NCBI RefSeq assembly: GCF_032393985.1
Contig: NZ_CP135918.1
Coordinates: 6,263,724 to 6,327,723, forward strand
Reading direction: 5' to 3'
DNA: 64,000 bases
Source: Fischerella sp. JS2
Lineage (GTDB): Bacteria; Cyanobacteriota; Cyanobacteriia; Cyanobacteriales; Nostocaceae
Shown: piece after piece, positions 23,271-43,456 of the stretch
Layout of the letters: each line of letters starts with the position of its first letter
Position numbering within the stretch: the first letter of the stretch is position 1
The notes under the pieces: generated by a model
The model's input: the letters and a program-made list of their open reading frames with translations, nothing else
What the model was told of the DNA's origin: nothing
The model's database searches: none
Made by a program: the position numbers and the translations under genes

Positions 23271-24101
23271 CTACAAAAGTGAATCCATCAAGTTCATTAC
23301 CCGAATAGCATCCTCACAAAGAGAGGAAACATCTAACTCCTTTTGAAGTTGATGTTCCAGTAAACCTTTGAGGGCTATCAGTTTGAAGCTATTTTCGACT
23401 TTGGCATTCGCGATCGCATCTGCTGCTGGTAAATAACCTATGGCACCCAAATCCCCTAAGGCAACGCGGCGCAATTTTAAGTCGTTGCTGTCCAAAACTT
23501 GCACTAAACGCTCTCCATATTTGGCGTCTTGGGTCAGCTGGTACATTGCTCTTGCTGCTGCACACTGCACTCGTGGTAATGGATGCTCAAGGAAAGGTTC
23601 TATTAGGGAAATAGCCTCAGTTGCACTAATAGCTCCCAAGGCTTCTAATACTGCTTCATAGGGCTGGATCAAGTGGGGGCGTCCTGGTACTGGCACTGCT
23701 GCTGCTACTCCACCATTGAGCAATTGCATCAGTGCTGGGGCAGCAGCTATGCCTTTTAGTTGTGCTAAGGATTGGGCAGCGGCTTCGCGCACATAAAAAT
23801 CAGAGCATTCCAAGCACTTAATTAAGCTTGGTACGGCTCGCATGTCGCCCAACTTTCCTAATGCTCTTGCAGCATTACGGCGTAGAGGATAGCCTCCCAT
23901 TTCTGTTCTGTCGGCTTCATCCTCTAATGCCACGACCAGAGCATCTACAACAGCTTGATCCCGGACGCGGTTTTTACCTAGCCACCAAGCAGCATAATAG
24001 CGGAGACTTAAATCTGGAGATTGCAGGTTAGCGATCGCTTGCTCTTTTGTTAAGGGCGGAGCGTTTTCGGCAGAATATTCTTCTGCACTTGGTTCAATCA
24101 T
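23271..24101 (-). CDS. cpcE: Phycocyanobilin lyase subunit CpcE
   Basis: With CpcF attaches (and can transfer) phycocyanobilin at Cys84 of alpha-phycocyanin. From ATG 24101 the product has 276 residues made of HEAT-like PBS lyase repeats, including RYYAAWWLGKNRV, YPLRRNAARALGKLGD and RVQCAAARAMYQLTQ. YYAAWWL is a motif shared by CpcE and PecE. A TTG two codons upstream also fits, but ATG is preferred. Only about 10 bases separate it from the cpcD stop, so translation may be coupled. Confidence 0.95.
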   Translation of the reverse strand: MIEPSAEEYSAENAPPLTKEQAIANLQSPDLSLRYYAAWWLGKNRVRDQAVVDALVVALEDEADRTEMGGYPLRRNAARALGKLGDMRAVPSLIKCLECSDFYVREAAAQSLAQLKGIAAAPALMQLLNGGVAAAVPVPGRPHLIQPYEAVLEALGAISATEAISLIEPFLEHPLPRVQCAAARAMYQLTQDAKYGERLVQVLDSNDLKLRRVALGDLGAIGYLPAADAIANAKVENSFKLIALKGLLEHQLQKELDVSSLCEDAIRVMNLMDSLL

Positions 24102-24111
24102 TGCCAAAGCG

Positions 24112-24357
24112 TTAGTTTGCTTCTGCTGTAGTTAAAGGCTCGATTTTAACGATTTTACCGCCCATACGAGTGATCCTCTGCATTTCTTCATTCATACGGT
24201 TGTATGGCACAGTCATGAATACGCTGCCGCTATTGCGGATGTCGTAGTTATTTTTGTCGTTTTCTTCGTTTTGCCGCAAGCCTACGACTTCATAACGAAA
24301 CATCCGGCTGTTTGCACTAGAAATGCCATTAGCACCAACTGTGGTTTGACCGAACAT
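24112..24357 (-). CDS. cpcD: Phycobilisome rod-capping linker, phycocyanin-associated
   Basis: Small linker (about 9 kDa, 81 residues) that caps the distal end of the phycocyanin rod and limits its length. It is a single CpcD-type domain: SRMFRYEVVGLRQNEE at the start of the fold, VFMTVPYNRMNEEMQRI and MGGKIVKIEPL at the end. The same domain forms the C-terminus of CpcC and PecC. It precedes cpcE closely on the same transcript. Confidence 0.96.
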   Translation of the reverse strand: MFGQTTVGANGISSANSRMFRYEVVGLRQNEENDKNNYDIRNSGSVFMTVPYNRMNEEMQRITRMGGKIVKIEPLTTAEAN

Positions 24358-24398
24358 TTTTGTTAACCTCTCCTGTAAAATTAGCTTTTGGGCAATTG

Positions 24399-24530
24399 TT
24401 AAGGAGTTAGGAGCTAGGAGTTAAGAATTAGGAGTTAAGAATTAGGAGTTTTGAAGTTTATATTTTCTTCAACCCATAACTCGTAACTCATGACTCATAA
24501 TTCTTAACCCATAGCTCCTCACTACTAACT
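24399..24530. repeat. Repeat spacer between cpcC and cpcD
   Basis: Tandem gagttaagaattag-type units (24413-24450) oppose aactcataattcttaacc-type units (24479-24515). Different unit from the gttagta STRR but the same fold-back layout. Confidence 0.7.
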
Positions 24531-24633
24531 TTTATACGGGTGTTCGCGCAGCCTTTCCCTTGAGAGAAATGGCGTTGAAACAGAAGTACTTGCTAAATCG
24601 ATAAATTACCACCCAAATGCTTCGCTCTTGCTA

Positions 24634-25500
24634 TTACGCTGGGGTGACACTAACGATTTTGCCGCCTTGACGTACAATTTGCTGAATTTTGTCCGAAAGA
24701 CGCTCGTAAGGTACAACCACGGCATAACTGCTACGACGTACGCTCGGGAACCCGGGATTGCGCTGTCCGGTAACTTCGATGCGATAAACGCGATCGCTCT
24801 GTCCAACAGCATTTCCCATATTTTTTCTGGGAGTCACATCCGTGCTTGCACGATAACTCCAGCTAGCATTACTACCAGAAGGCCCAACAATTGAGGAAGT
24901 GCTATTGGTTGCTAGTTCACGAGCAAGACGAGTTTTAGTGCCTTCTACTTGGGCGCGATCGCTATTAGCATAACCCCGATATAAACGGAACATCCGGGTA
25001 AAGCCAGCGGTTTTTTGTCCTGTTTGAATCTCAAAACCGCGATAGTAGGGGACAATGTTGTCGCCGAAGTTATTCAGATATTCAATTGAATCTATGTAGG
25101 AGTCGATTTCAGTATCGTACCCTTGGTTTTGGTACAAGTCTAAGTGGAAAATCACCTCAGACTCATCGTAGGGAGCGCGACCCAATAAATGCTTGTAGTT
25201 GAGTTCGATAAACCGAGTTTGGAAGCTGTTGTAGAAAAATTTCTTCTTGTAGAGTTCTGACTTGGCAACGCTACGCACAAACTCCCGCACTGTCAGGTTC
25301 CCATCCCGCAGGAGTGATTCTGCACTCTTCAAGCGTTCTGATGCCATGATGTAGTCATTACCCAAGATTTGCCGATATACGGCTCTAATTACTGCTTCTA
25401 CATCATCTCTGCTTGCATTGGGGCGTAACTCAACTTTAGCTGCGCTTGTGCTACTAAAGGCTTCTGTTCCTAGCCTGGATGCTGCTGCTGTAATCGGCAT
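24634..25500 (-). CDS. cpcC: Phycobilisome rod linker, phycocyanin-associated
   Basis: A 288-residue rod linker (about 32 kDa) that joins phycocyanin hexamers within the rod. The N-terminal PBS linker domain (about 20-180) has [36 protein letters not shown] and [15 protein letters not shown]-terminal CpcD-like domain (about 235-288) has [16 protein letters not shown] and [11 protein letters not shown]. It lies after the cpcBA pair beyond a conserved stem-loop that probably lowers its expression relative to the chromoproteins. Confidence 0.95.
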
Positions 25501-25577
25501 TTTTTCCCCCTATTTATTTACACGCTTAACTTTTGCGTGTCTGAATAAATATTTTTATCAATCCCCAGATAAAACTA

Positions 25578-25636
25578 TGCCCGGAGCTAGATCCAACTGC
25601 TTGGTGATTCCATACAGCTGCATCCCTCTCCGGGCA
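25578..25636 (-). terminator. cpcA-cpcC intergenic stem-loop (attenuating or stabilising)
   Basis: A perfect 9-bp stem TGCCCGGAG / CTCCGGGCA (25578-25586 and 25628-25636) encloses a further structured 41-base region. It starts 10 bases past the cpcA stop. No T-run follows on the minus strand, so it is better read as an RNA-stabilising or partial-termination element. Similar elements are known after cpcBA in other cyanobacteria. Confidence 0.8.
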
Positions 25637-25645
25637 TTACGCTAT

Positions 25646-26134
25646 CTAGCTAAGAGCGTTGATTGCGTAATCAATGTAGGTGTTGGCTTCGTTAGCAGCT
25701 TGACCACTCAAACCGTGGTTGCCTTTGATGTACTTGAGAGCTTCTACATACCAGCTGGGAGACAATTCAAAAGCGCTGTTGATTTCATCCAAACCAGCAA
25801 TTAGGTATTCATCCATTGGACCAGTACCACCAGCAACTAGGCAGTAGGTTACCATCCGCAGGTAGTGGCCGATGTCACGAGCGCACTTTGATTTACCACG
25901 GGAATCAGCAGCGTACTGAGGACCGCTCATTTGGGTGGTGTAGGGGAACTTCTGATATACAGCTTGAGCTGCACCATCAATCAAGCGCTGAGCGTTAGAG
26001 GTCAAAGCACGAGCAGCTTCCATGCTAGCGGTAGCACGCTCTAAACGACCACGAACAGCTTGCAGTTCGGTGTTGCTCAGAAAACGTCCTTGGGTATCAG
26101 CAGCTGCGATTGCTTCGGTAATGGGTGTTTTCAT
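25646..26134 (-). CDS. cpcA: C-phycocyanin alpha subunit
   Basis: Light-harvesting biliprotein of the PBS rod, 162 residues, globin-like phycobilisome fold. The phycocyanobilin attachment site is Cys84 in [14 protein letters not shown], the target of CpcE/CpcF. It pairs with CpcB to form alpha-beta monomers, then trimers and hexamers. Starts at ATG 26134 with a ribosome site (aaggag) just upstream, 81 bases after cpcB. Confidence 0.98.
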
Positions 26135-26215
26135 GATGTTAAATCTCCTTAACGTTTCGTAATTTTTTGCCTGGATACCAAGCTTTTTGGTTCTGGGCTT
26201 TCTTTTTTATGTTTA

Positions 26216-26734
26216 TTACGCAACAGCAGCAGCAGCGCGATCAAAGTAGCTAGCTACTTCAGACATCAACTGACTGCAATCACCCTTAGTGATACCATTG
26301 GGGTCGTTAGCAATGTTGACCGCAGCTTCTTTCATTTTCTGAACACCAGTTGCTACAGAAGAACCGGGAGTTCCCAGAGCTTGGTAGGTTTCGCGCAAGC
26401 CATTTAAGCAACGATCATCAAGAACGCTAGCGTCACCTGCGAGGATAGCGTAGGTAACATAACGCAAGATGATTTCCATATCGCGGAGGCAAGCAGCCAT
26501 GCGACGGTTGGTGTAAGCGTTTCCACCAGGAGAAATCAATTGAGGTTGCTCTTCAAACAAAGCACGAGCAGCGTTGGTAACGATGGTGGAAGCATTGCTG
26601 GTGATGCGGTTGACTACATCCAGGCGCTTGTTGCCGTCCTTAACTAAGTTGCTCAGACCATCAAGTTGTTCGCTGCTGAGAAATTCGCCTCTGGAGTCAG
26701 CTTGAGAAACCACCTTGGCAAATGCGTCTAACAT
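26216..26734 (-). CDS. cpcB: C-phycocyanin beta subunit
   Basis: 172-residue beta subunit of phycocyanin. It binds two bilins: Cys82 ([13 protein letters not shown]) and Cys153 ([10 protein letters not shown]), normally attached by CpcS/CpcU- and CpcT-type lyases that are not in this window. Asn72, the residue usually methylated, is present (GGNAY). First gene of the cpc transcript and preceded by a 690-bp upstream region, so it probably has its own promoter separate from pec. Confidence 0.98.
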
Positions 26735-27424
26735 GGAAGATTCTCCTAATTCCTTAGTTGAGTGCTGTGTTGATTAAAACTGGAATTGTTTTATCAATTT
26801 GGATTGGTCTATAACAGACGTTAAACAAGAGTGTTTCTCTTTTGATCTTCACTTTTGTGTTCTGCGAACAGAATCAGAAAAATGAGAAACTGGGGTGATT
26901 TTATGAGAAACTGGCAAACTTTACAAATTGATTGCCATCTTTAACTTTTGCCTGTTAATTAACCCCTCCAGCTTATGTTTATACAACGCTACAGGGGCAT
27001 TATTTGTTACAAATTATGAATAAATGATTTCGACCAATAAGAAAAGCCTCAAAACCTTTACATGCAAGGACTTTAACTGAGAATTAGTGCTTTTTTTCTT
27101 AACATTACTTTACAAAAGGGTAAGATAAGACGCAACTTTTCTTTGCTTAGATTTTCTTAATTTTTGTTCAATACTCATACAGTACAATCTATTCGAGTTC
27201 TACATGACTTTTATAGACATACCCATCTATGTTAAGAATTTTTAACAAAAAAATTCCAAATGTTGCTATTAGTTGCAGAAATTTGTCACAACAGATGGAG
27301 ATAGGGAACTCGAAGCCCTAGGATTGACTGAGCTTTGAAAGCAGAACAAACAGGAGGAGAGGAAGGGGTGGCTAGAAAAATAAATTCCTCTCATCCTGCT
27401 GATTTATATATTTCCAGTTTGTAG
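26735..27424 (-). promoter_or_regulatory. cpc operon upstream region
   Basis: 690 bp without a gene between the pecF stop and cpcB. It is AT-rich with many A/T runs and no STRR tract. Its size, and the fact that the other spacers in this block are far shorter, suggest that it holds the main cpc promoter and leader. No promoter boxes were assigned with confidence. Confidence 0.5.
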
Positions 27425-28054
27425 TTAATCTGGCAGATTTTTTGTTGCAGCCATTGTAATACGCGATCGCACCACTTTGTCTGCTTCTTGATTTAGTGAA
27501 GCCTGTAAGGCAGCATGAGCTGCTGGTGTGGCAATTTCTTGTAGAGCAACCGCAGCAGCGTAACGTAGCCCCCAATCTTCTGGAGTCAGTAAAGCCCAAG
27601 TTAGTTTTTCGACAGCATAGCGGATTACTTCTGGTTGCTCAGTAGTCCTCCCTATTTTTCCTAGTCCCCGTGCGGCAATCCGACGGACATTTCCTTGACA
27701 GTGGTTAGCTACTTCTGTACCAACAACTTCTGCCAACAAATCAACTGCTCGCTTGTCCCCAATTAGTGCTAAAGCTTGAATAATATAAGCCTGCACGCCC
27801 TGATCAGAAGAATTACGGAAAGCAAAAATCAGTGGTTCTACGCTTGCAGGTGCTAGCTTTACTAAAGCTTCAACTGCCGCTTTGCCTACAGAAAGGTGAT
27901 GATGGCTAAAAGCTTGAATTAAAGCTGAAATCGCCTTAGTTTCCGTAGTTTCCCTAGCAGATAGAGTAGCAATTGCAGATATCGCATCAGTTGGTAGCCG
28001 GGCATTACTTAATTGTAAAATTAGTTGCTCGGTATTTACATTCTGTATATTCAT
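27425..28054 (-). CDS. pecF: Phycoviolobilin isomerase-lyase subunit PecF
   Basis: With PecE attaches phycocyanobilin to Cys84 of PecA and isomerises it to phycoviolobilin. The 209-residue HEAT-like protein contains NHCQGN at 117-122, the motif specific to PecF and required for isomerisation. This shows that the alpha subunit carries phycoviolobilin rather than phycocyanobilin. Starts at ATG 28054, after a 99-bp STRR spacer downstream of pecE. Confidence 0.96.
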   Translation of the reverse strand: MNIQNVNTEQLILQLSNARLPTDAISAIATLSARETTETKAISALIQAFSHHHLSVGKAAVEALVKLAPASVEPLIFAFRNSSDQGVQAYIIQALALIGDKRAVDLLAEVVGTEVANHCQGNVRRIAARGLGKIGRTTEQPEVIRYAVEKLTWALLTPEDWGLRYAAAVALQEIATPAAHAALQASLNQEADKVVRSRITMAATKNLPD

Positions 28055-28089
28055 GATTGTTAAAGATTGCAGACATAAAAAAGACCGGG

Positions 28090-28144
28090 TTAGTGGTTAG
28101 TGGTAAAAAACTAACTACTAATTACTAACTAATAACTACTAACA
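28090..28144. repeat. STRR spacer between pecE and pecF
   Basis: gttagtggttagtgg faces actactaattactaacta in opposed orientation with a short A-rich loop. Confidence 0.75.
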
Positions 28145-28153
28145 ATCCCAATC

Positions 28154-28924
28154 TCAAAGCTGAATTAACAAATCATCAATTGCCTGAAAAATTAACTCAG
28201 TTGTTTCCTGATCAGTTCGTTCGTTATCTAACAAGGCTTCCAAAATGCGTTTCAAATTTAATAACTTTAAACTGTTAGGAACCCGAGCAGCTAAAATCGC
28301 ATTTATTGCTTGACGATGACCAACAGCTCCTAAATCAAATATGGCTGCCCAGCGCAAATACATATTGTCATGATTCAAATTATTAATAATACGTTCAATG
28401 TACTGGGGTTCTTGGGTTAAAAGAAACAAATATCGTGCCGCAGCACATTGTACTCGCTCGGAAGTGTGATTGAGAAAGGGTTCTATTTGGGGACGAGCAG
28501 ACCATACTTGTAAAGTCGCTAGGGCTTCTATCAAGGCTTCTAATGGTTGCTGTTGGTGAGATTGCAACAGTTTCAGCAAAGGCTCAACAGCCTGCTGGTC
28601 GCCAATAGCTGCTAAAGCTTGAATAACTGCTTCCCGTAGGTGCAGATCATCACATGCAAGTGCAGCAATTAACGCTGGTACTGCTTGTGGATTCTTTAAT
28701 TGTCCTAAAGCACGTGCAGCTTGACGACGTAGGGGATAGCCTCCTGATGGAATGCGATAGCGTTCATCAAATAGGGCTTCACACAACGCTGTACAAGCAG
28801 ATTGTACTTGATGTTTTCCCAACCACCAAGCAGCGTAATAACGAATTTGGTTATCTTCGCCCTTTAGTGCTGCGATCGCTGCTTCTTTTGAAAGAATTGG
28901 TTCGGCAGAATATGCAGCAGTCAT
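28154..28924 (-). CDS. pecE: Phycoviolobilin lyase subunit PecE
   Basis: Lyase subunit acting with PecF on alpha-phycoerythrocyanin. The 256 residues are HEAT/PBS lyase repeats: RYYAAWWLGKHQVQ (the YYAAWWL motif), YPLRRQAARALGQLKNPQAV, LREAVIQALAAIGD and RVQCAAARYLFLLTQ. It is clearly homologous to CpcE in this window. Starts at ATG 28924. The spacer to pecC (85 bp) contains a G/A-rich 'ggggaggtaggg' tract facing 'ccccccatctccc', another fold-back repeat. Confidence 0.95.
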   Translation of the reverse strand: MTAAYSAEPILSKEAAIAALKGEDNQIRYYAAWWLGKHQVQSACTALCEALFDERYRIPSGGYPLRRQAARALGQLKNPQAVPALIAALACDDLHLREAVIQALAAIGDQQAVEPLLKLLQSHQQQPLEALIEALATLQVWSARPQIEPFLNHTSERVQCAAARYLFLLTQEPQYIERIINNLNHDNMYLRWAAIFDLGAVGHRQAINAILAARVPNSLKLLNLKRILEALLDNERTDQETTELIFQAIDDLLIQL

Positions 28925-29009
28925 AAGTAAGTCAAAAGTTAAAAGTGAGAGATGTGGGGAGGTAGGGAGGTAGGGAGAATATATTTATCCCCCCATCTCC
29001 CATCTTGTT

Positions 29010-29849
29010 CTATGAGGCTGGCGTAATCTTGACTATCTTACCCCCACGCTTGTGAATTTCTTGGTAGGTAGCTGACAACCGCTCATAGGGTACGGTGTAA
29101 ACTTGTCTGCTACGACGCACTGCAACTTTGGTGTTCACTCCACCAGCGATCGCTTCGATGATGAACATGCGATTATCTCCCAATACAGGAGAACTAATCA
29201 AAGTTGGTGCAATTGATGTAAAGCCAAGGCCTGGAGATGATGGTGGCGAAATCATGTTGGACATGTTCATCGCAATTTTCGAGCGTAAGCGCGAACTTTT
29301 ACCACCAAATTGAGCGTTGTCGCTGTTACCTCTGCCACGGTAAAGCTCGAAGATACGGTTGTATCCTACCGTCTTCATACCAGGAATCGACTGAAATCCC
29401 CGGTAATAAGGAACAACATAGTTACCAAAGGCATTGTCATATTCGGAACTGTAAATGTACGATTCTATTTCAGCGTCGTAACCACTAGAAGCATACAGAT
29501 CAGTGTGATATGCAATTTCTGATTGATCGTAGGGTGCGCGTCCCAACAAATGCTTATAGTTCAATTCAATGAACCGCACTTGGGAGTTTTTGTAAAAGAA
29601 ACATTCTCTATAAAATTCAGATTTTGCGAGAATTTCCACAAATTGTTTAACGCTGATTTTGCCGTTACGTAGCATTGCTTCAGCGCTAGTAAATCTTTGG
29701 CTAGCATACACACCTTGGCGACCAAAAATTTGCTCGTAAGCAGCGCGAAATACTAGCTGCAATTCATCTTCAGTCCAATTTTGGCGTAGCTCTATTTTTT
29801 TGCCGATCTCATCTCTAATTGCTAGACGTTCTGCGACTGAAGTAGTCAT
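29010..29849 (-). CDS. pecC: Phycobilisome rod linker, phycoerythrocyanin-associated
   Basis: 279-residue linker that fixes the phycoerythrocyanin hexamer at the distal end of the rod. PBS linker domain about 20-175 ([48 protein letters not shown]), then a CpcD-like domain (about 225-279: [10 protein letters not shown] and [12 protein letters not shown]). Starts at ATG 29849, third gene of pecBACEF. Confidence 0.95.
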
Positions 29850-29933
29850 CTTGACAATCGCTCCATATTTGCGAATTTTTTATTGTTTCTTTTCTCAAAT
29901 ACAACGAATGGCTAATTGCTAATTGCACTAGTG

Positions 29934-30056
29934 CTAGCTGTTAGTTGTTGATTTTTAGTAGTTAGCTGTTAATAAATAGTTGTTGATTTTTTCTGACCAA
30001 CCACTAACCATTAACTACTAACCACTAACCACTAACTACTAACTACTAACCAGTCT
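29934..30056. repeat. STRR spacer between pecA and pecC
   Basis: agctgttagttgttga-type units oppose an array of accactaaccactaactac units (about 30000-30052). One of the longest tracts in the block. Confidence 0.75.
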
Positions 30057-30107
30057 CGATTAGCCATTAGCCATCAAAGAGGGACAAAGGACACTTGCTG
30101 TGTAAAC

Positions 30108-30596
30108 TTAGCTCAATGCATTAATTGCATAGTTGATATAGGTGTTGGCTTCACCAGCAACATCACCAGTCAAACCATGATTGTCACGGACAAATTCTAG
30201 AGCCGCTACATACCAACTGGGAGACAAGCCAAGAGCGCTGTTGAATTCTTTTAAGCCTGCAACTACGTATTCATCCAAGGGGCCAGTACCACCAACTACG
30301 CAGCAATAGCTGATAGTACGTAAGTAATGGTCAATATCACGTACGCACTTAGATTTACCTTCTGGGGTAGAAGCATACTGGGGCCCTTGCATTTGGGTGG
30401 TGTAGGGGAATTTTTGATAAACGTGATTGGCTGCTGCTTCCGCCCATCTTTGGCCATTGTTAGCAAATGCTTTAGCTGCTTCTAAGCCAGCACGAGCGCG
30501 GTTAAAACGACCAAATACTGCTTGGATTTCAGTGTTGCTTAAGTAAGAACCGCGAACATCAGCAGCGGCGATCGCTTCAGTTAATGGGGTTTTCAT
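30108..30596 (-). CDS. pecA: Phycoerythrocyanin alpha subunit
   Basis: 162-residue biliprotein of the rod tip. Cys84 in [14 protein letters not shown] is the phycoviolobilin attachment site processed by PecE/PecF. The sequence is close to CpcA but distinct, for example [17 protein letters not shown]. Phycoerythrocyanin absorbs near 570 nm and passes energy to phycocyanin. Second gene of the pec operon, 176 bp after pecB. Confidence 0.97.
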
Positions 30597-30772
30597 GATT
30601 TAATTAATCTCCAAAAATTGCTAACTAAAAAACTCAAAAAAGTCTTGCCAAAAATTTATGAAAACAAGTTGTACTTGCAACTTTTATATCCATATCCTTT
30701 GCAATTACAAATGACCCAGGCATAATGACAAAGGATACTTACAAAAAGTGCAATCTACAACCAGAAAAATTT

Positions 30773-31291
30773 TTAAGCAACCGCCGAAGCAGCGCGGTCA
30801 AAATAGCTGGCAACTTCAGACATTAACTGACTGCAATCACCTCTGGTAATTCCATTAGGATCGTTAGCAATATTGATGGCAGCTTCTTTCATTTTTTGAA
30901 TTCCAGAAGCTACAGCATCACCAGGAGTACCAAGAGCTTGATAAGTTTCACGTAAACCATTCAAGCAGCGATCATCCATAACGCTGGAATCACCTGCTAG
31001 TACAGAGTAGGTAACATAGCGCAGAATAAATCCTAAATCGCGGATACATGCAGCCTGATTACGATGGTGGAAGCAAGCACCACCAGGATTGAAGACTTGG
31101 GGACGTTCTGCTACCAAAGCACGATAAGCATTAGCAACAATAGAGGAAGCATTGCTGGTGAGTCTATTAACAACATCTAAGCGCTTGTTGCTATCAGCAA
31201 CCATTCCTTGCAGAGCGTTGATTTCATCACCGCTTAAATAAGCACCTTTCTTATCAGCCTGTTCAACTACTCTGGAAAAAGCATCAAGCAT
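30773..31291 (-). CDS. pecB: Phycoerythrocyanin beta subunit
   Basis: 172-residue beta subunit with bilin sites Cys82 ([13 protein letters not shown]) and Cys153 ([10 protein letters not shown]). It differs from CpcB in the loop GGACFHHRN, which adds an extra Cys73 and His pair, as in other PecB proteins. First gene of the pec operon, preceded by a 660-bp promoter region. Confidence 0.97.
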
Positions 31292-31951: not shown

Positions 31952-32899
31952 TCATTTGTTATTTTTATCGGAAGTGGCAACTCGTCTTCTCAATACTTCT
32001 AGGAGAGTCTTGAACGTTTGAGGAATAGGTGCAGTGACTTCGATCCATTGTTCAGAAACCGGATGTTGTAACCTGAGTCGCCAAGCGTGGAGTGCTTGAC
32101 CCGGTAAATTGACACCTACTGAACGGCCAGAACTATAAACAGGATCGCCAACAATAGGATGACCTATGTGGCTGCTATGGACACGAATTTGATGGGTACG
32201 TCCGGTTTCCAATTGAAAGTGTATTAATGTATAGTTGCCCAGACGTTCAAGTATTCGCCAATGCGTAGTTGCAGATCTACCACCTTTTTCTAGTGAGACA
32301 ACAGCCATTTTTTTTCGATCTACTGGATGACGACCGATGGGTAAGTCAACTGTACCGTTTTCAGTTTTTGGTACACCGTAGACAACACCTAGATATTCTC
32401 GTTGTGCGGTTTTAGCCTTGAGTTGTGCTTGGAGATGTTGGTGAGCAAATTCAGTTTTAGCAATTGCGATCGCCCCTGTTGTATCTTTATCTAATCGATG
32501 TACAATTCCCGGACGCTGCACACCACCGATGCCGGGTAAGTTGGGACAATGAGCTAAAATGGCGTTAACCAATGTGCCATCAGGATGGCCGGGTGCAGGA
32601 TGGACAACTAACCCCGCAGGTTTATTGAGAATTAATAGTTGATTATCTTCGTAGAGGATGTCTATGGGGATATCTTCTGCTGTGAGTTCGAGAGGTTCTG
32701 CTGGGGGAATTTCTAAGGAAATGCGATCGCCTAGTTTCACGGTAGTCTTTTTAGATGTGCAAACTTTACCGTTGAGTTGAACCTGACCCTGTTCAATTAA
32801 CTGCTGGATGCGGGAACGAGATAGGTCTGTTAATTGTTCAGTAAGGTAGCGGTCTAGACGTTCTCCCTGTTCTTCTACTTGTAAACTAATTTCGGTCAC
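31952..32899 (-). CDS. rluD: RluD-type 23S rRNA pseudouridine synthase
   Basis: 315-residue pseudouridine synthase of the RluA/RluD family. An N-terminal S4 RNA-binding domain (about 13-62) precedes the catalytic domain. The catalytic Asp137 lies in HRLDKDTTG; other motifs are NKPAGLVVHPA and LETGRTHQIRVH. By homology it modifies helix 69 of 23S rRNA, but RluA-type specificity cannot be fully excluded. GTG start at 32899. It lies upstream of pecB on the same strand but is too far away to be cotranscribed with certainty. Confidence 0.9.
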   Translation of the reverse strand: MTEISLQVEEQGERLDRYLTEQLTDLSRSRIQQLIEQGQVQLNGKVCTSKKTTVKLGDRISLEIPPAEPLELTAEDIPIDILYEDNQLLILNKPAGLVVHPAPGHPDGTLVNAILAHCPNLPGIGGVQRPGIVHRLDKDTTGAIAIAKTEFAHQHLQAQLKAKTAQREYLGVVYGVPKTENGTVDLPIGRHPVDRKKMAVVSLEKGGRSATTHWRILERLGNYTLIHFQLETGRTHQIRVHSSHIGHPIVGDPVYSSGRSVGVNLPGQALHAWRLRLQHPVSEQWIEVTAPIPQTFKTLLEVLRRRVATSDKNNK

Positions 32900-34807: not shown

Positions 34808-36013
34808 ATGAAGATACTCCCTATTAATAGATACAGGTTTTATCAATCGTTACAACCGTTATTTCTACTGAAGAAAATAACTAGTAAATCTACTACTGGT
34901 TGTTTACAAGTTTTTACCGCTTCTGGTTCTTGGTCAATCTATGTGGAGGAGGGTAAATTAGTTTATGCGTGCTGTACAGAAAAAATGTTTGAGTTGCTTT
35001 ACAAGCACTTGCAGCGTTTAAGCCAAAAAATACCTACTCTCCACAATGGCATCAAAGAGCAATTGCGGGCAATTTTTGAAACTGGGATTGAGAATCAAGC
35101 AATACCCAATCCAGACTATCTAGCTATTTGCTGGTTAGTTAATCAGAAATATATCACTCCAGCTCAAGCTGGAATATTGGTGGAACAATTGGCATTAGAA
35201 GTTTTAGAGTCGTTTTTATTGTTAAAAGAGGGAAGTTACGAATTTACTCCTGAAAGCTTTTTGGATGAGATGCCAAAGTTCTGCCATTTAGATGTGCGTT
35301 TGCTAGTCGAACGTTGCCAAAAGCGATCGCCTGGCTATGCATCCAGCCCCAGTAGTAAATCAGAAAATTCCACTGCTGATGTAGCGCCACCGCAGCCAGC
35401 TTCCTTGGAAAGACGACATCTCAATCATCAGTCAGCTTCGGAAATTGCAGCTACCTCCCCACAACAAACTCCCCAGAGGACATCTAAGGGGAAAAGCACA
35501 CCAAATTCTGGACAGCAACAGCATCTCCATGTTGTTCCCCCAAGCCAGCAACCCTTGCCTAAACCAAGATTGAATAATGTCTTACCTCATCCTGTTAATA
35601 CTAATAACAGTAATCGTCCACAAATTTCTCAACCAAACGTTGATAAAAAACTCTACACGGTTTTTTGTATTGATGACAGTCCTGCTGTCGTAAATGCCAT
35701 CAGTAAATTTTTGGATGATCAAATGTTTTCTGTTGTGGGCATCAACGATCCACTCAAGGCTTTAATGCAAATTATTCGCCTCAAACCAGATTTGATTTTA
35801 TTAGATATTGAAATGCCAAACTTAGATGGTTATGAATTGTGTTCATTGGTACGGAAACATTCTCATTTTAAAGATACACCCATAATCATGATTACAGGTA
35901 GAACAGGTTTTATCGATAAAGCTAGAGCCAAACTTGTGAGGGCATCAGGCTATTTGAGTAAACCTTTTACACAGGCAGATTTACTTAAAGAAGTATTTCA
36001 ACACATTAAGTAG
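34808..36013 (+). CDS. PatA-family response regulator (PATAN plus receiver)
   Basis: A 401-residue protein. The N-terminal half (about 10-170) is the PATAN/DUF4388-like domain of PatA, with TGCLQVFTASGSWSIYVEEG. A low-complexity Ser/Pro/Gln linker (about 175-275) leads to a C-terminal receiver domain: acidic pair CIDD, phospho-acceptor Asp333 in LLLDIEMPNLDGYE, and Lys385. ATG 34808 is preferred over TTG 34793. PatA controls heterocyst pattern in Anabaena, and relatives (PixG type) head phototaxis gene clusters. The chemoreceptor and CheA-like genes that follow favour the phototaxis/motility role. Confidence 0.85.
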   Translation: MKILPINRYRFYQSLQPLFLLKKITSKSTTGCLQVFTASGSWSIYVEEGKLVYACCTEKMFELLYKHLQRLSQKIPTLHNGIKEQLRAIFETGIENQAIPNPDYLAICWLVNQKYITPAQAGILVEQLALEVLESFLLLKEGSYEFTPESFLDEMPKFCHLDVRLLVERCQKRSPGYASSPSSKSENSTADVAPPQPASLERRHLNHQSASEIAATSPQQTPQRTSKGKSTPNSGQQQHLHVVPPSQQPLPKPRLNNVLPHPVNTNNSNRPQISQPNVDKKLYTVFCIDDSPAVVNAISKFLDDQMFSVVGINDPLKALMQIIRLKPDLILLDIEMPNLDGYELCSLVRKHSHFKDTPIIMITGRTGFIDKARAKLVRASGYLSKPFTQADLLKEVFQHIK

Positions 36014-36371: not shown

Positions 36372-39300
36372 ATGGTTAACAGAATTAATTCAGAACCGAA
36401 AAATAATAATTATCATCGGCGCACATTTAGAGTTACTTCCGAAACCGAAACTGTACTTCAGCGCAGAACTTATTCTCTCTATTCTCCGATCAATAGTGTT
36501 ATAGCATGGGCAAAACAAATTAGTTTCCGCACCAAAGCGATCGCTTTTGCTATTGCTATTTCCACATTACCAACATTGGGAGTGGGAGCTATGACATATT
36601 ACTTAGTAAATCAGTCTCTCACTAAAGAGATTAGTAATATTAAACAAGCCAGCGCTCGCAATTTAGCAGACAATGTTGAGCGTTTTATGCTGAAACGATA
36701 TAAAGAAGTTCAGCTATTCGCCAACCAAAAATTTCTCACTGAGTCCACACTGCGAGATAGTTTAAATGCTCAAGATCAAACAGCACGGCTCAATAATTGG
36801 CAGGATATTTATCAAGTCTATGAAAGTATTGCTGTTGTGGATCTTAATGGTAAAGTTGTTTTACAAACTCCAGGCGAAGCAATTCCTAACCAAAAAAATC
36901 AGAAATATTTTCAAGCAGTTCTGAAAACAAATCAACCATATATTAGTCAGCCATTGGTAAGTGTAAATTTAGAACAGTCGAAAATTTACTTGGCTGCACC
37001 AGTTAAAGATAGTGTAACGAATAAAACTATTTATATTATCCAAGCAGTTATACCTATACAATCCTTAGCACAAACACTTAATAAGCTCTCCGGAATCAAG
37101 GATGAGTACCAGTTAATAGATTCTGGGGGCAAGATTTTTTTGGCAACAGATCAGAATCACCTGGGTAGAGATGCTCAAAAAATTATTCCTAAATGGCAAG
37201 AATTACAAACATCAAAACAAGTAGTAACACGTATACTGCGAGATCGAAAAGGTAAAGCTGAAGATTTAACTACCTTTGTTCCTTGGGAAAAAACAGCAGG
37301 TTTACCGGATTTAAATTGGCAATTAGTTTTGAGTACAGACAAAGCGATCGCCTTGGGTACACAAAGACAATTATTATTGACATTGGCAATTGGAACGATT
37401 GTGACAGCGTTATTGGTGGGTGCGATCGCTGCTATTTTAGCCAATCGTCTTACTCTACCCATTCAAACTGCCACGATGGTAGTGAAAAAACTGGCTAGAG
37501 GTAATTTTGACACACGTATTACTGTTAAAGGGGAAGATGAATTTGCTACTTTGGGAGCCAGTATAAACCGTATGGCTGACCAACTGCAAGACTTACTCAA
37601 TAAACAAAAAATTGAGGCTGAACGCCTCAAGATGTTTACAAACATTTTAACGGCGATTCGGCAATCACTTAATTGTGAGGATTTATTTAACACTACAGTT
37701 GCCGAAGCTAGACAAGCACTAGGAGCCCATCGAGTAGTTGTCTATCACTTTAATGCTCACGGTAGGGGACAAGTCATCGCCGAGTCTGTCGCGCCTGAAT
37801 TACCCGTAACTTTGGGCGACACAATTGAAGACACTTCCATTGCTAGGCAATTAGTAGAAACCTACACAACCAATGGCATTCTCATCGCCAATAACGTCTT
37901 TGAGACAGACTTGGTTCCCGAACATCTGAGATTGATGGAAAGACTGCAAGTCAAAGCAATATTAGCGACACCGATTCTCAAAGATAATCAGATTTTTGGC
38001 TTTTTAATTGCTCATTATTGCTGGGCGCCCCATGTTTGGCAACCTTTTGAAATTAATTTCTTGCGACAGTTAGCAGTTCAAGTCGGATTGGCTTTAGAAC
38101 GAGTCCATTTGCTGGAAGTCAGCCAGGTACTCAAGGACTTTGCGATTCACTTATCTGGAACTCTTAATTCTCAGGAAATCTACAACTTGGCAGTTCAAGA
38201 TATCCGTAAAGCCTTAAAGGTGGAGCGTGTTGTCATCTGTAAATTTGATGAGAAATCACAAGGTAGTATTTTAGCTGAGTCGGTAGTTGAGGGTTTACCT
38301 GGTGTAGAAACAAGATTTCATGAAGCTGTTGTGCAAGATTACGTAGAAAAGTATCGCCAAGGTGGTGTACTGGCTGCTAACAATATTTATCAAGCAGGTT
38401 TTTCAGAAGTCTACGTCAAACAGCTAGAATCTTTTGCTGTAAAAGCTCACCTCCAAGCACCAATTTTGTTGGGGAGTAATCTACTAGGCTTGTTAATTGC
38501 TCATCAATGTACCAGAACTCGTGTCTGGCAACAAGCAGAGATTGAGTTATTCGAGCAATTTGCTAGATTGGTGGGACTAGCTTTAGAAAGAGCTAATCTG
38601 CTAGAACAAAGTGAAAAAGCTTCCGAACAGCAACGTCAACAAGCAGAACAACTACAGCAACAGCTAAACAGACTCTTAGATGATGTAGTAGGAGTTAAAA
38701 GAGGCGATTTAACAGTACACATCGAAGTTAACAAAGGCGAAATCGGAGCGATCGCAGACTTTTGCAACTTCATTATCGAAAGCTTGCGGGAGGTTGTCGT
38801 ACAAGTGAAAGCAGCCGCTACCCAATTAAATATAGCGATCGCTGAAAATTCTGGAATCATCAGCCAACTAGCTATTGACACATTCAAACAAACACAGGAA
38901 ATAGATCGTTCCCTTGATGTTGTTGATCAAATTCGGCTTTCCATCAAAGGCGTAGCCAAAAATGCCAGATTAGCTACAGCAGTTGTTCGTACAGCCTCCC
39001 CTACCGCTGAAATTGGTGACACAGCGATGGATCTCACCGTCGAAAATATCTTTAGCCTGCGGGAGTCGATGGGAGAAACAGCAATAAAAATCAAGCGTCT
39101 AGGGGATTACTCGCAACATATTACTCGTCTGGCTTCCTTAATTAAACAAATCTCCTTACAAACTAACTTATTAGCGATCAACGCTGGTATCGAAACAGCA
39201 CGTATGGGTGGAGATAGTGACAGTTTAATCTCTTTCTCTGAAGAAGTAGCCGCACTGGCTACCGAAAGTGCCACAGTCACAGGTGAAATCGAAGGAATCG

Positions 39301-39635
39301 CCACCAATATTAACTTGGAAGTTAGCGAAGTAGTCAAGACAATAGAATTAGGAAACGCCCAGCTAATAGAAGTCACTCGTCTGATTGAAGATAGCAAACA
39401 CATCTTAAATCAAATGCTGAATGTTTGTTGCCAAATTGACGAATTAGTACAATCAATTTCTCTCGCTTCAGTATCTCAAGTGCAAACTTCTAAAGAAGTC
39501 ATTAATTTAATGAGAGAGATTGCGAAAGTATCTGAAATGACTGGTGGTTCCTATCGTAAAGTATCCGCATCTCTCCAAAGAACATTAGAGATTTACCAGC
39601 ATTTACAAGCAAGTGTTGGTAGTTTCAAAGTTTAA
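36372..39635 (+). CDS. Methyl-accepting chemotaxis-type receptor with two GAF domains
   Basis: A 1087-residue membrane receptor. Order: TM1 (~55-78), extracytoplasmic dCache-like sensor (~85-325), TM2 (~333-358), HAMP (~359-412), GAF1 (~432-575), GAF2 (~598-740), then a coiled-coil MCP signalling domain (~760-1087). The GAFs resemble PixJ-type domains, but the bilin-binding Cys is replaced: GAF1 has VPEHLRLMERLQVKA where CBCRs have a Cys-His, and GAF2 has SEVYVKQLESFAVKA. So a bilin is unlikely to be bound covalently. The signalling hairpin tip (SFSEEVAALATESA) lacks the Arg of the usual EVRxLA motif. It sits between the PatA-like and CheA-like genes. Confidence 0.88.
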   Translation: MVNRINSEPKNNNYHRRTFRVTSETETVLQRRTYSLYSPINSVIAWAKQISFRTKAIAFAIAISTLPTLGVGAMTYYLVNQSLTKEISNIKQASARNLADNVERFMLKRYKEVQLFANQKFLTESTLRDSLNAQDQTARLNNWQDIYQVYESIAVVDLNGKVVLQTPGEAIPNQKNQKYFQAVLKTNQPYISQPLVSVNLEQSKIYLAAPVKDSVTNKTIYIIQAVIPIQSLAQTLNKLSGIKDEYQLIDSGGKIFLATDQNHLGRDAQKIIPKWQELQTSKQVVTRILRDRKGKAEDLTTFVPWEKTAGLPDLNWQLVLSTDKAIALGTQRQLLLTLAIGTIVTALLVGAIAAILANRLTLPIQTATMVVKKLARGNFDTRITVKGEDEFATLGASINRMADQLQDLLNKQKIEAERLKMFTNILTAIRQSLNCEDLFNTTVAEARQALGAHRVVVYHFNAHGRGQVIAESVAPELPVTLGDTIEDTSIARQLVETYTTNGILIANNVFETDLVPEHLRLMERLQVKAILATPILKDNQIFGFLIAHYCWAPHVWQPFEINFLRQLAVQVGLALERVHLLEVSQVLKDFAIHLSGTLNSQEIYNLAVQDIRKALKVERVVICKFDEKSQGSILAESVVEGLPGVETRFHEAVVQDYVEKYRQGGVLAANNIYQAGFSEVYVKQLESFAVKAHLQAPILLGSNLLGLLIAHQCTRTRVWQQAEIELFEQFARLVGLALERANLLEQSEKASEQQRQQAEQLQQQLNRLLDDVVGVKRGDLTVHIEVNKGEIGAIADFCNFIIESLREVVVQVKAAATQLNIAIAENSGIISQLAIDTFKQTQEIDRSLDVVDQIRLSIKGVAKNARLATAVVRTASPTAEIGDTAMDLTVENIFSLRESMGETAIKIKRLGDYSQHITRLASLIKQISLQTNLLAINAGIETARMGGDSDSLISFSEEVAALATESATVTGEIEGIATNINLEVSEVVKTIELGNAQLIEVTRLIEDSKHILNQMLNVCCQIDELVQSISLASVSQVQTSKEVINLMREIAKVSEMTGGSYRKVSASLQRTLEIYQHLQASVGSFKV

Positions 39636-40030: not shown

Positions 40031-41803
40031 ATGTTAAAAGATAGGGAACTAGAGAACCAGATAAACTTTCTGGAAGAAGCCAACGGTAATTTGAATACCC
40101 TAGAATCTATATTCTTGGAACTCAAATCTAACCATCAAAGCTATTTACAAAATATTGATATGGCTCTCAAAGTGATTCATTCGATCAAAGCTGGTGCAGA
40201 TATTGTAGGTTTTCCTTTACTGAGTGATTTTGCTCACCGTCTAGCAGATGCGCTACAAGATTTCAAAAAACAGACAAACTTTTTAGAAATTGACACCGAG
40301 TTACACAGTTTGCTCTTATCTAGCATTGAATGGTTACGACAGATAGTGAAATTACTTTCTGTTGGCTATGTCATAGATGAGCAATGGTTAACAAGTTTTT
40401 GTTTTCCAGTATTTGAAGAGCTAAAAAAGCGTTTGACTCAGCAAATTTGGGCAAATAACCCAACGCAGTACTCACCACCTCAAGAACTGGAAGACATCAT
40501 CTTATTAATTTTCAAAACTGAAGTAGAAGAATATTTACAACACCTAAAATCTTTATTAGCTCAAACGGATAAGTCTGCTTTAAAATCAGAAGTCATCATG
40601 ATAGCTACTCAGTTGGGTGATTTAGGTGAGCTACTTTATTTAAAGGCTTTTACCCAGCTTTGTCAGTCAGTTATACAACATTTAGAAGTAGCTGTATCTA
40701 ATACAGATGTCATAGATATTGCTAAATTAGCATTATTGACATGGCAGCGATCGCAAACATTGATACTGACAAAGCAACTTGCAAAATTGCCGACTGAAAT
40801 TGGTGTGAACTGGGATATAAAAGGTAAATTTATTCAAAATTTTCCAGAGCAAGAATTCACATGTATAGAACTGTTACCAGATGTACTGTTTTCTAATTAC
40901 CAGAGAGAATGTCAAGAAATAACAGTACGAATTCCTGTCAATAAAAACGAGAAAATCAATTTTTTATTTCAGGAAGTTACTATCCAGCAACAAAACCTAA
41001 AAATGCATATAGATAGATTACACAAGCTCATTCACAATCTTAGCCTTCGCGTCAAAAAGCTGGAATTAAAAAATTATGAACTACATCTTGCTTATAATAA
41101 ATTATCTACTAATGTATGTACATTGACGAAAATACATGCACAAAATGAAAATCCATATCACATTGTTGCCGCTCATCATCTCACAGACAACAGTCAAGAA
41201 TTAAATTATCTGTCACAAACAGTCATCGAAACCATTGCTAAAATTCAAGCAATCACAAAAGATATTGAGAGCAATATAACTGATGCCAATCAAGTTAATT
41301 TCCTTTTAGAAAAAACAGCTCAAAATCTTAGAGAATCTTTTGTACAAACACCATTGCTTCACTCTAGACAGCGAGTCATGCTAGTAGAATGTCATGGTAT
41401 GCTCGTGGCATTACCAACAAATATAATTGTAGAAACATGTTTGTTAGAACAACTTGATAGTGAGTTTTTGCACTGGCAAGGTTCAACAATTCGCTTAATT
41501 AGGCTTGAGCAATACTTACAATTTTATAACTTACATCCCGCAATATCATCTTCAGATACTCTGCCACAAATCGATACTGCGAATGTATTAATCATTAGAG
41601 ATAACAATCAACAAGTTGCAGTACAAATAGATCGTTGTTGGGGTGAAATAGAAGTTTCTCTTCATCAAGTTGAAGCTAACACAACTCTACCTACTGGCAT
41701 TAGTAACTATACAATTGTAAATGATGAGCAAATAGTGCCTGTGCTGAGTACTAGTGATTTGCTGAATTGGATTACTACTAGTCAATTCTCAACAGCTACT
41801 TGA
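40031..41803 (+). CDS. CheA-like protein lacking the histidine-kinase ATPase domain
   Basis: 590 residues from ATG 40031 (TTG 40007 also possible). An N-terminal Hpt domain keeps the phosphorylatable His in VIHSIKAGADIVGF (His50 from the ATG). A second Hpt-like helical segment (~150-245) seems to lack its His (IATQLGDLGELL). A coiled-coil/dimerisation region (~315-435) includes QELNYLSQTVIETIAKIQA. It is followed at once by a CheW-like P5 domain (~440-585: RQRVMLVECHGMLVALP onward). The ~190-residue HATPase_c (P4) domain that separates P3 from P5 in every active CheA is missing, with no N, G1 or G2 box. It probably acts as a phosphotransfer or scaffold protein. Third gene of the chemotaxis-like cluster. 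Confidence 0.8.
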   Translation: MLKDRELENQINFLEEANGNLNTLESIFLELKSNHQSYLQNIDMALKVIHSIKAGADIVGFPLLSDFAHRLADALQDFKKQTNFLEIDTELHSLLLSSIEWLRQIVKLLSVGYVIDEQWLTSFCFPVFEELKKRLTQQIWANNPTQYSPPQELEDIILLIFKTEVEEYLQHLKSLLAQTDKSALKSEVIMIATQLGDLGELLYLKAFTQLCQSVIQHLEVAVSNTDVIDIAKLALLTWQRSQTLILTKQLAKLPTEIGVNWDIKGKFIQNFPEQEFTCIELLPDVLFSNYQRECQEITVRIPVNKNEKINFLFQEVTIQQQNLKMHIDRLHKLIHNLSLRVKKLELKNYELHLAYNKLSTNVCTLTKIHAQNENPYHIVAAHHLTDNSQELNYLSQTVIETIAKIQAITKDIESNITDANQVNFLLEKTAQNLRESFVQTPLLHSRQRVMLVECHGMLVALPTNIIVETCLLEQLDSEFLHWQGSTIRLIRLEQYLQFYNLHPAISSSDTLPQIDTANVLIIRDNNQQVAVQIDRCWGEIEVSLHQVEANTTLPTGISNYTIVNDEQIVPVLSTSDLLNWITTSQFSTAT

Positions 41804-41945: not shown

Positions 41946-42740
41946 TCATAATGGACGACAACTAGATAAAATTTTGTGCATATTTACCACCGCACCAATC
42001 ACCACAATTGCAGGTGCTTCAAATCCAGTTTGCTCAACCTGCTCTACAATTGTTCCTAACTCACCAATCAACTCTTCCTGATCTGGTCTTGTACCCCAAC
42101 GTACCAAAGCAATAGGAGTTTCCAGACTCAACCCCGCCTTCATTAACTCCTCGACAATATAAGGCAAATTGTGAATTCCCATATATATCACTATAGTTTC
42201 GGAACCGTGAGCGATCGCACTCCAATTCACAGTCGGTCGATACTTACCTGCCGCCTCATGACCTGTAACAAATGTTACTGAGGAACTATACAATCGATGT
42301 GTCAAAGGAATATCCGCGTAGGCTGGAGCCGCTATCCCCGATGTAATGCCCGGCACAACCTCCACAGCTACTCCCGCTTGCAATAATTCTTCCATCTCTT
42401 CGCCACCGCGACCAAAAATAAACGGATCACCCCCCTTCAACCGGACGACAACCGCGTGTTCTTGCGCTTTCTCAATCATTAACTGGGTTGTTTCTTCCTG
42501 CACTAGTGAATGACGTCCCCGCCGCTTCCCAGCATTAATTTTTTCCGCTTGATGATTAATCATTTCTAGAATTGCTGGACTTACCAAAGCATCATAAATC
42601 ACAACGTCTGCACACTCCAACAACCCTTTACCCTTGAGTGTCATCAACCCCGGATCTCCTGGCCCAGCACCCACCAAATAAACCTTTCCCAAACTATTCT
42701 TCCCCTCTTCCTTCGCGTCCTTAGCGTCTTCGCGGTTCAT
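41946..42740 (-). CDS. cobA: Uroporphyrinogen-III C-methyltransferase
   Basis: Adds two methyl groups from SAM to uroporphyrinogen III, giving precorrin-2 for sirohaem and cobalamin. 264 residues from ATG 42740, which overlaps the sirB stop by four bases (ATGA), so translation is coupled. Motifs: [12 protein letters not shown] (23-34), [24 protein letters not shown] and VTGH. No fused HemD or CysG domain. The first ~14 residues ([14 protein letters not shown]) are encoded by a common intergenic-type repeat, so the original start may have been replaced. Confidence 0.95.
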
Positions 42741-43456
42741 TCTTGAATTAAATCCCAAACTAAATCAGCTAACTGTGCACTTGCTCCTAAAGGTTCTGCC
42801 AACTGCAAATCCACCCCAGGAAACTGTAATTGTAACTTTTCTGTTACCTGAGCGATCGCATCAGTTATTCCACCTGCGAATAAAAAGTATGGCAGAATTG
42901 CAATTTGCCTGTGGCCAACATCAATCAACTCTTTGACTTGCACTTCTAAACTAGGAGGTACAGACCAGTAAGCAGTCACTGCATCTAAATTTTTCGCTAT
43001 TGCTTCTACTCGTATTTGTGAACCCGGACGACGGCTACCATGCGCTACAAGAATCCTCGCCGTCGCTTTTGTCGCAGTGAATTGCTTGGCTAAAAAGTTC
43101 TCTAACCCAGAGTGACTACCCAAATGTGGTTGTAATTCTATTAAAATATCTTCACCAAGAGCCGCTCTTGCCAGCCTGACTTCATTAGGAATATCATCCA
43201 TCACATGTACCCCTGATAGCAAAAACAGTGGCACAACTTTGAGATAAACCTTCTGCCAACCAACAGAATTTCTGACGAACTTGATGATTTGCTTATGTAA
43301 AGGTTCTGGCTTAAGTTCTAAACACGCTGTACCAACTCTAATTCCAACTTCAAGACTTCGCGCTTGCTCAATTACAAGCTTTGCCAACTCCTGCATGGCA
43401 ACTTCTGGACGTGGATCTCGGCTACCGTGGGATACTAGTAAACATGCAGACACCAT
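42737..43456 (-). CDS. sirB: Sirohydrochlorin ferrochelatase / CbiX-type chelatase, two-domain
   Basis: Inserts iron (or cobalt) into sirohydrochlorin. The 239-residue product has two tandem CbiX domains: LLVSHGSRDPRPE at residue 7 on, with His10, and the second copy ILVAHGSRRPGS. The family motif VHVMDDIP is present. ATG 43456 is chosen over TTG 43462. Gene order sirB-cobA with a 4-base overlap covers two steps of sirohaem synthesis needed by nitrite and sulfite reductases. SirB versus CbiX function is not separable by sequence alone. Confidence 0.9.
   Translation of the reverse strand: MVSACLLVSHGSRDPRPEVAMQELAKLVIEQARSLEVGIRVGTACLELKPEPLHKQIIKFVRNSVGWQKVYLKVVPLFLLSGVHVMDDIPNEVRLARAALGEDILIELQPHLGSHSGLENFLAKQFTATKATARILVAHGSRRPGSQIRVEAIAKNLDAVTAYWSVPPSLEVQVKELIDVGHRQIAILPYFLFAGGITDAIAQVTEKLQLQFPGVDLQLAEPLGASAQLADLVWDLIQE

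Follow-up and report, generated by a model that had tools for sequence, protein, structure and literature searches.

A CheA-like protein without the kinase domain beside a PatA-type gene in Fischerella sp. JS2

A CheA-like gene of Fischerella sp. JS2 encodes a protein that keeps the P1 (Hpt), D2, P3-like and P5 domains and has no HATPase_c domain (P4), in a cluster with a PatA-type regulator and a methyl-accepting receptor. The protein is kin to a complete CheA of the same genome and to complete operons of related genomes, is under purifying selection and has kept its phosphoacceptor histidine. We tentatively read it, with slightly less than even confidence, as a selected, non-catalytic CheA remnant of PatA's own chemosensory operon that would still serve PatA and the receptor, with possible phosphorylation of its P1 in trans. 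The stretch analysed, hereafter the window, comprises 64,000 nucleotides (contig NZ_CP135918.1, positions 6,263,724 to 6,327,723), and its relevant features are the following.

31952 to 32899, reverse strand: RluA-family pseudouridine synthase, a conserved flank of the patA locus
34808 to 36013, forward strand: PatA, PATAN/DUF4388 and receiver, with DD, D, T and K kept (Pfam, tree)
35804, forward strand: codon of the PatA receiver phosphoacceptor Asp333
36372 to 39635, forward strand: methyl-accepting receptor with dCache, HAMP, two GAF and MCP signalling domains (Pfam, HmpD alignment)
40031 to 41803, forward strand: kinase-less CheA-like gene, P1(Hpt)-D2-P3-P5, 590 aa, ATG start (open reading frame, Pfam, HmpE alignment, model)
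40031 to 40441, forward strand: P1/Hpt domain, residues 1-137 (Pfam, alignment, model)
40178 to 40180, forward strand: codon of the P1 phosphoacceptor His50
40244 to 40246, forward strand: codon of P1 Ala72, the position equivalent to E. coli Glu70
40481 to 40768, forward strand: D2, a second helical bundle common to HmpE, residues 151-246 (alignment, model)
40937 to 41341, forward strand: P3-like long helical hairpin, residues 303-437 (alignment, junction comparison, model)
41342 to 41365, forward strand: P3/P5 junction, site of the missing P4, which spans about 187 aa in HmpE
41366 to 41788, forward strand: P5, CheW-like domain, residues 446-586 (Pfam, model, Foldseek)
41946 to 42758, reverse strand: uroporphyrinogen-III C-methyltransferase, the conserved flank on the other side

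Pfam matched the 590-aa reading frame to Hpt at residues 13-81 (29.3 bits against a cut-off of 24.6) and to CheW at residues 449-580 (44 bits against 23.5), and found neither H-kinase_dim nor, even at E<=1, HATPase_c in it. None of the N, G1, F and G2 boxes was recovered by motif search, against all four in the paralogue HmpE, and a HATPase hidden near the frame was excluded, since the genome-wide HATPase_c search listed none within the window. An AlphaFold2 model from 19 sequences (mean pLDDT 69) contained a P1 helical bundle (residues 2-137), a further helical bundle (151-246), a hairpin (303-437) and the strands of P5 (446-586); the relative placement of these domains is meaningless because the pTM was 0.29. 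Foldseek matched the model to CheA P5/CheW (best E 5.5e-8) and to CheA P1 (1i5n_D, TM 0.82 by target length, E 0.007). The D2 of HmpE gave two matches among PDB sequences, both at E of at least 0.4 and neither significant, and the single PADLOC match (E 0.05) was taken as chance. An earlier note on this DNA had described an Hpt with its His, a P3-like coiled coil running directly into a CheW-like P5, and the loss of HATPase_c with its four boxes, and had proposed a profile search and a structure prediction. The results agree with that description: the Hpt match and kept His, the alignable and modelled long hairpin, the CheW matches of Pfam and Foldseek, the HmpE alignment together with a junction that recurs in three relatives, and the absence of any HATPase_c match or box. 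The same note had held that an active CheA is impossible in this form, and rightly so, as a protein without P4 cannot autophosphorylate.

The complete CheA of the same genome (1020 aa, L037:10659-13721) stands in a row of PatA-type, CheY-like, CheW, receptor and CheA genes followed by a second receptor. By this gene order we take the row to be the hmp locus and its CheA to be HmpE, the name of the CheA in the hmp hormogonium-motility locus of Nostoc punctiforme. P1, D2, P3 and P5 are common to both proteins and align on either side of a clean gap, some 187 aa long, that corresponds to P4; the window P3, without a Pfam match and modelled as a 135-residue hairpin, aligns to that of HmpE at about 35% identity. 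In addition to P4, the window protein differs from HmpE in having no C-terminal receiver and no Hpt-P3 linker, two absences on which the earlier note was silent. The kinship extends to the neighbours, as the CheA-like gene, receptor and PatA-type gene of the window are paralogous to HmpE, HmpD and HmpA of the same genome, although the window cluster, unlike the hmp locus, contains neither CheW nor CheY. Outside the window, the genome has six CheA genes in which HATPase_c is combined with CheW; Hpt was present in all six, which rules out a P1-less partner among them.

The gap is shared by relatives, as the earlier note had proposed to check: the same P3-to-P5 junction occurs in the window and in Fischerella muscicola PCC 7414 (G069), Chlorogloeopsis fritschii PCC 6912 (G033) and G035, that is, in two genera, at 87, 52 and 50% identity to the window protein, respectively. 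Because the junction is common to these genomes, chance and misassembly are excluded as its source; in addition, the JS2 assembly is a single contig of 7.02 Mb, and the probability that an assembly error or a recent laboratory deletion produced the gap is practically negligible. The shared junction also implies that the divergence of the window and C. fritschii genes most likely postdates the loss of P4. In F. muscicola, PatA and receptor lie on one contig and the CheA remnant on another (L136, L041), with the break between window positions 39640 and 39727, and the frame of the remnant is open.

Selection was estimated as pairwise omega by the Nei-Gojobori method with our own script, and not by branch-model likelihood. 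For the whole gene, omega was 0.35 (0.25-0.49) between the window and F. muscicola and 0.31 (0.24-0.41) between the window and C. fritschii, the latter at dS 1.10. By domain, the C. fritschii comparison gave 0.21 for P1, 0.33 for D2, 0.28 for P3 and 0.31 for P5, and the printed fraction of 2000 bootstraps with omega >=1 was 0.000 for each domain; in the F. muscicola comparison, constraint on P5 was not clear (0.57, 0.26-1.53). Under neutral simulation at three divergences, all 200 copies acquired stops every time, and together with omega this rules out a recent pseudogene. Control values for the F. muscicola and C. fritschii pairs, respectively, were 0.10 and 0.14 for the receptor, 0.13 and 0.18 for PatA, 0.12 and 0.08 for the uroporphyrinogen methyltransferase, and 0.15 and 0.21 for a flanking chelatase-type gene. 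Across all Fischerella/Chlorogloeopsis pairs, the remnant (0.20-0.45) exceeded receptor and PatA (0.08-0.21), the receptor taken by itself being strongly constrained at 0.08-0.14, and the chelatase-type gene ranged from 0.15 to 0.39. The remnant is thus maintained under a constraint weaker than that on its neighbours, since its omega is below 1 yet above the control genes, and these sequence comparisons show that a P4-less CheA can be maintained by selection.

The earlier note had seen only a PatA-like regulator and a receptor in the cluster; the two are indeed its only other members, and the regulator groups with PatA itself. Its protein has DUF4388 and Response_reg above the Pfam cut-offs, and in a quick tree (SH-aLRT only) built from 104 PATAN-receiver proteins it falls into a group of 83 rows with support 82, the smaller sets that hold it being starred. 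The HmpA group (7 rows, support 100), which includes the genome's own hmp copy, stands apart. On one side of the patA locus lie phycobiliprotein genes and an RluA-type pseudouridine synthase, on the other the uroporphyrinogen methyltransferase, and 65 of the 83 rows have the RluA-type or the methyltransferase flank on the fetched stretch; in Anabaena PCC 7120, patA presumably adjoins the pec genes. From tree and flanks, the window gene is most likely the PatA of heterocystous cyanobacteria and not HmpA. At E<=1e-70, a limit that may miss matches split in two, a protein search matched it in 190 of 217 family genomes, the matches being PatA or near relatives of it. PatA of PCC 7120 (all0521) is described in passages of PMC3566145 as a protein of 379 aa with conserved surroundings; the window PatA resembles it in its PATAN and receiver domains, in its conserved surroundings and in sharing a tree group with the rows of G199, G200 and G207, which have exactly this length, but 60 of the 95 patA loci examined have no CheA beside patA.

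As for the receptor, the tip of its hairpin (window 39159-39269) has diverged from HmpD, reading ETARMGGDSDSLISFSEEVAALA versus EAARAGEEGQGFAVVAEEVGELA in the hmp receptor, and the canonical motifs of the tip are gone in the Fischerella-type lineage despite a receptor omega of about 0.1. No canonical Cys for bilin binding was seen by eye in its GAF domains.

The locus was compared across 95 of the 217 family genomes, hand-picked among the matches listed, so that short remnants may be missed in the other 122, and the tally was keyed on P1. A complete CheA was present in nine genomes, eight with receptor and CheW seen and one (G185) at a contig end; 25 carried CheA remnants, and 60 had no CheA at the locus, among them G001, which has a receptor and CheW. 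The remnants comprised P1-D2 (16), P1-D2-P3-P5 (4), P1-P3-P4 (2), P1-D2-P5 (1), P1-D2-P3-P4 (1) and P1 alone (1). A renewed search for CheA, CheW or receptor pieces in the 60 loci found none in 51 and, in 8, only distant kinase, GAF or receptor matches of low identity more than 4 kb from PatA; no P1-less CheA piece stood beside PatA in any of the 60. P1-D2 was kept without a receptor or intact CheW at the locus in 10 genomes. Among the nine complete loci, the RluA flank was seen in two: in G194 (L115) the RluA gene adjoins PatA, CheW, receptor and complete CheA, and in G190 (L061) the same set has part of an RluA gene at the end of the locus. Furthermore, G038 (L066) has P1-D2-P3-P4-P5 with PatA, CheW and a truncated receptor, likewise beside the RluA gene. 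The complete sets and G038 fall outside the 83-row PatA group of the PATAN-receiver tree, as its near relatives.

Fossils of the missing parts were also found: 4 of 10 Scytonema-type loci (L054, L056, L067, L068) have CheW remains that separate PatA from P1-D2, and G170 has a weak P5-end match (38 bits) 3' of P1-D2. All 25 remnants cluster together, with weak support (75/83), in a tree of 44 P1-D2 rows, where the 11 Fischerella/Chlorogloeopsis-type rows make up a starred group with P1-D2-P3-P5 on both sides of its basal split. Since this architecture spans the split, the tree is most simply read as a single loss of P4 followed by separate P3-P5 losses, which would have occurred in G034, G170 and G171-G174. 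The earlier note, sound on the class of explanation as discussed below, was thus incomplete: the gene represents one stage in the wider reduction of a complete operon.

Pruning in the opposite direction was observed at L127:6726-8180 and L151:9853-11298, where P1-P3-P4 is left without P5 or receiver. These proteins, of G198 and G082, keep P4 with P5 gone, and their F and G2 boxes were absent even with a loose G2 pattern; the PatA receivers at the two loci are damaged (in G198, D is replaced by G; in G082, DD by SN and T by A). In the P4 of G193, the G1 and F boxes match and the N and G2 boxes match loosely. The remnants of G193 (L052:7802-9685, 627 aa) and G192 (L137:10502-10978, 158 aa) lie beside the methyltransferase gene with no adjacent PatA, which argues mildly against a strict PatA-only role; both genomes have PATAN-receiver genes of 375-376 aa elsewhere, either PatA or a paralogue.

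In E. coli CheA, the catalytic roles of P1 fall to the quartet H48-K51-H67-E70. The phosphoacceptor His was present in 47 of 47 P1 domains compared, including all 25 remnants, although the remnants were found by their P1, so that its constant retention is partly circular. At the quartet positions, 40 of the 47 had HKHE, and all seven exceptions were remnants: HKHA in the window and in F. thermalis PCC 7521 (G070), HKNV in F. muscicola, HKQE in C. fritschii and G035, HKLE in G034 and HNHE in G082. The window P1 has thus lost the conserved catalytic Glu (Ala72). The quartet was broken in 5 of 5 P4-less, P5-bearing proteins against 1 of 17 cut to P1-D2 or P1. Of all results, this one speaks most strongly against phosphotransfer in the window protein.

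On the side of PatA, the window receiver keeps its Asp, Thr and Lys. Among the PATAN rows, the receiver Asp was kept in 90 of 104 (otherwise N in 9, S in 3, G in 1, gap in 1), and 12 of the 13 substitutions belonged to loci with PatA alone. Where the locus has a P1 gene, complete operons included, 30 of 31 PatA rows retained it, against 48 of 60 where it has none, over the 91 rows left after dropping 12 HmpA-type or outgroup loci and the truncated PatA of L072. Because the rows provide just two independent pairs, no conclusion was drawn on whether Asp loss follows P1 loss. The 12 lone-PatA loci with Asp replaced by Asn or Ser (L100, L102, L103, L104, L108-L114, L129) include Anabaena subtropica FACHB-260 (G210) and Nostoc parmelioides FACHB-3921 (G200), and the substitution suggests a phosphorylation-independent PatA there.

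In a survey of 13,673 sequences, HATPase_c is reported for every CheA (Berry et al. 2023; PMC10782961), and with a kinase domain in every homologue, that survey probably does not list P4-less proteins. The window protein has P1 with its His and P5/CheW; without P4, it falls outside the definition of CheA. The arrangement had been called unknown as a described system in the earlier note, which is too strong, for a kinase-deficient CheA of P1...P5 form is already described in Rhodobacter sphaeroides CheA3 (PMC3591291, PMC10782961), whose phosphorylation in trans is carried out by CheA4 (PMC3591291), its P1-less partner (PMC10782961). Both proteins keep P1 and P5 and, with no working kinase domain, do not autophosphorylate; by this analogy the window protein may work like CheA3. 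However, CheA3 has a long region of degenerate Hpt, P2, dimerisation and kinase domains (PMC10782961), whereas the window protein physically lacks P4 and keeps P3. Because the six P4-bearing CheA of its genome all carry Hpt and no P1-less partner exists among them, it also falls outside the CheA3-type split-kinase definition, a type further marked by a P1 that is phosphorylated in trans and by phosphatase activity on the regulator. A bipartite CheA with a separate Hpt gene is likewise described in passages of Berry et al. (2023; PMC10782961); it resembles the P1-D2-only relatives in that Hpt is separate from the kinase, but no kinase half is found in the window cluster. A kinase-deficient P1/P5 CheA being already known, the interest lies in the link to PatA.

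Under the reading that we tentatively favour, a PatA-CheW-receptor-CheA operon would have been ancestral, an in-frame deletion in an ancestor common to the Fischerella and Chlorogloeopsis lines would have removed P4, and the C-terminal receiver would have been lost as well. The protein, no longer able to make phosphohistidine itself, would be docked by P3 and P5 to a chemosensory complex (with a second copy of itself, with the receptor, or with a different CheA, for instance HmpE), its P1 His would take phosphate in trans from another CheA, HmpE being the closest, and P1 would exchange phosphate with the PatA receiver. This reading is supported by the CheW and P5-end fossils, the complete operons beside the RluA gene and the shared P4 junction, by omega of 0.31 at dS 1.10 with His in 47/47 and PatA Asp in 30/31 at P1 loci, and by the precedent of CheA3 phosphorylation by CheA4, as passages of PMC3591291 give it. 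It is weakened by the P1 quartet broken in 5/5 and the diverged receptor hairpin tip, by the lack of a P1-less CheA4-like partner and the G192 and G193 remnants without adjacent PatA, by the unclear constraint on P5 against F. muscicola, and by there being just two independent pairs to relate Asp loss to P1 loss.

The earlier note had offered a scaffold, a phosphate sink or a modulator, a sensible class of explanation given the missing P4 and the PatA-type/receptor setting. The broken quartet of the five P5-bearing P4-less proteins, selection on P3 and P5 over a dS of about 1.1 and the strongly constrained receptor (omega 0.08-0.14) would all suit a phosphorylation-independent scaffold whose P3 and P5 hold receptor and PatA together or cap an array, P1 being only a binding surface; yet the P1 His is kept in all 47, sister lineages dropped P3 and P5 and retained P1-D2, mostly with HKHE, and in 10 genomes P1-D2 persists without receptor or intact CheW at the locus, so that we regard a pure scaffold as unlikely. 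A sink draining phosphate from PatA or CheY, or a negative modulator poisoning HmpE as a putative kinase-dead heterodimer, is very improbable: P1 and the P3-like hairpin are kept without P4, and P3 is still alignable to that of HmpE, but at only about 35% identity.

Repeated losses of P3, P4, P5, CheW and receptor, the 60 of 95 genomes without CheA at the locus, and a remnant omega (0.20-0.45) above that of receptor and PatA (0.08-0.21) in the Fischerella/Chlorogloeopsis group could also indicate slow decay under relaxed selection, the gene being on its way out as in the lone-PatA lineages. We consider this quite unlikely, since the frame is open and omega well below 1 across a long divergence, the P1-D2-only proteins of Scytonema type have omega of 0.11-0.23, and a flanking chelatase-type gene of unquestioned standing itself reaches 0.15-0.39.

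The maintenance of the remnant next to what is probably patA points to an origin of patA as the output of a chemotaxis-like sensor, with the kinase being dismantled later. A larger claim, that the heterocyst-pattern regulator PatA was at first the output regulator in a chemosensory operon of type IV pilus style and that the leftover kinase-less CheA still links PatA, and thereby cell patterning, to another CheA's phosphate and, where one is kept, to an environmental receptor in Fischerella, Chlorogloeopsis and Scytonema types, appears rather doubtful. No paper tying patA to a CheA remnant appeared in the titles and abstract openings of the best-ranked literature matches, and the literature passages on PatA do not state a phosphate donor, if any. 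Some relatives have a complete receptor and CheA, others have remnants that are P4-less or cut to P1-D2, and the Nostoc- and Anabaena-type loci fetched have neither receptor nor CheA; at 12 of these loci the phosphoacceptor Asp of PatA is gone as well. The locus makes PatA phosphorylation a testable question, because complete sensor, stages of dismantling and lone PatA can be compared across living relatives. In addition, a gene set for phycobiliprotein subunits, linker and lyase adjoins the patA locus as a tandem duplicate (window 23271-31291), the two sets being 67-71% identical in their subunits and 47% in linker and lyase.
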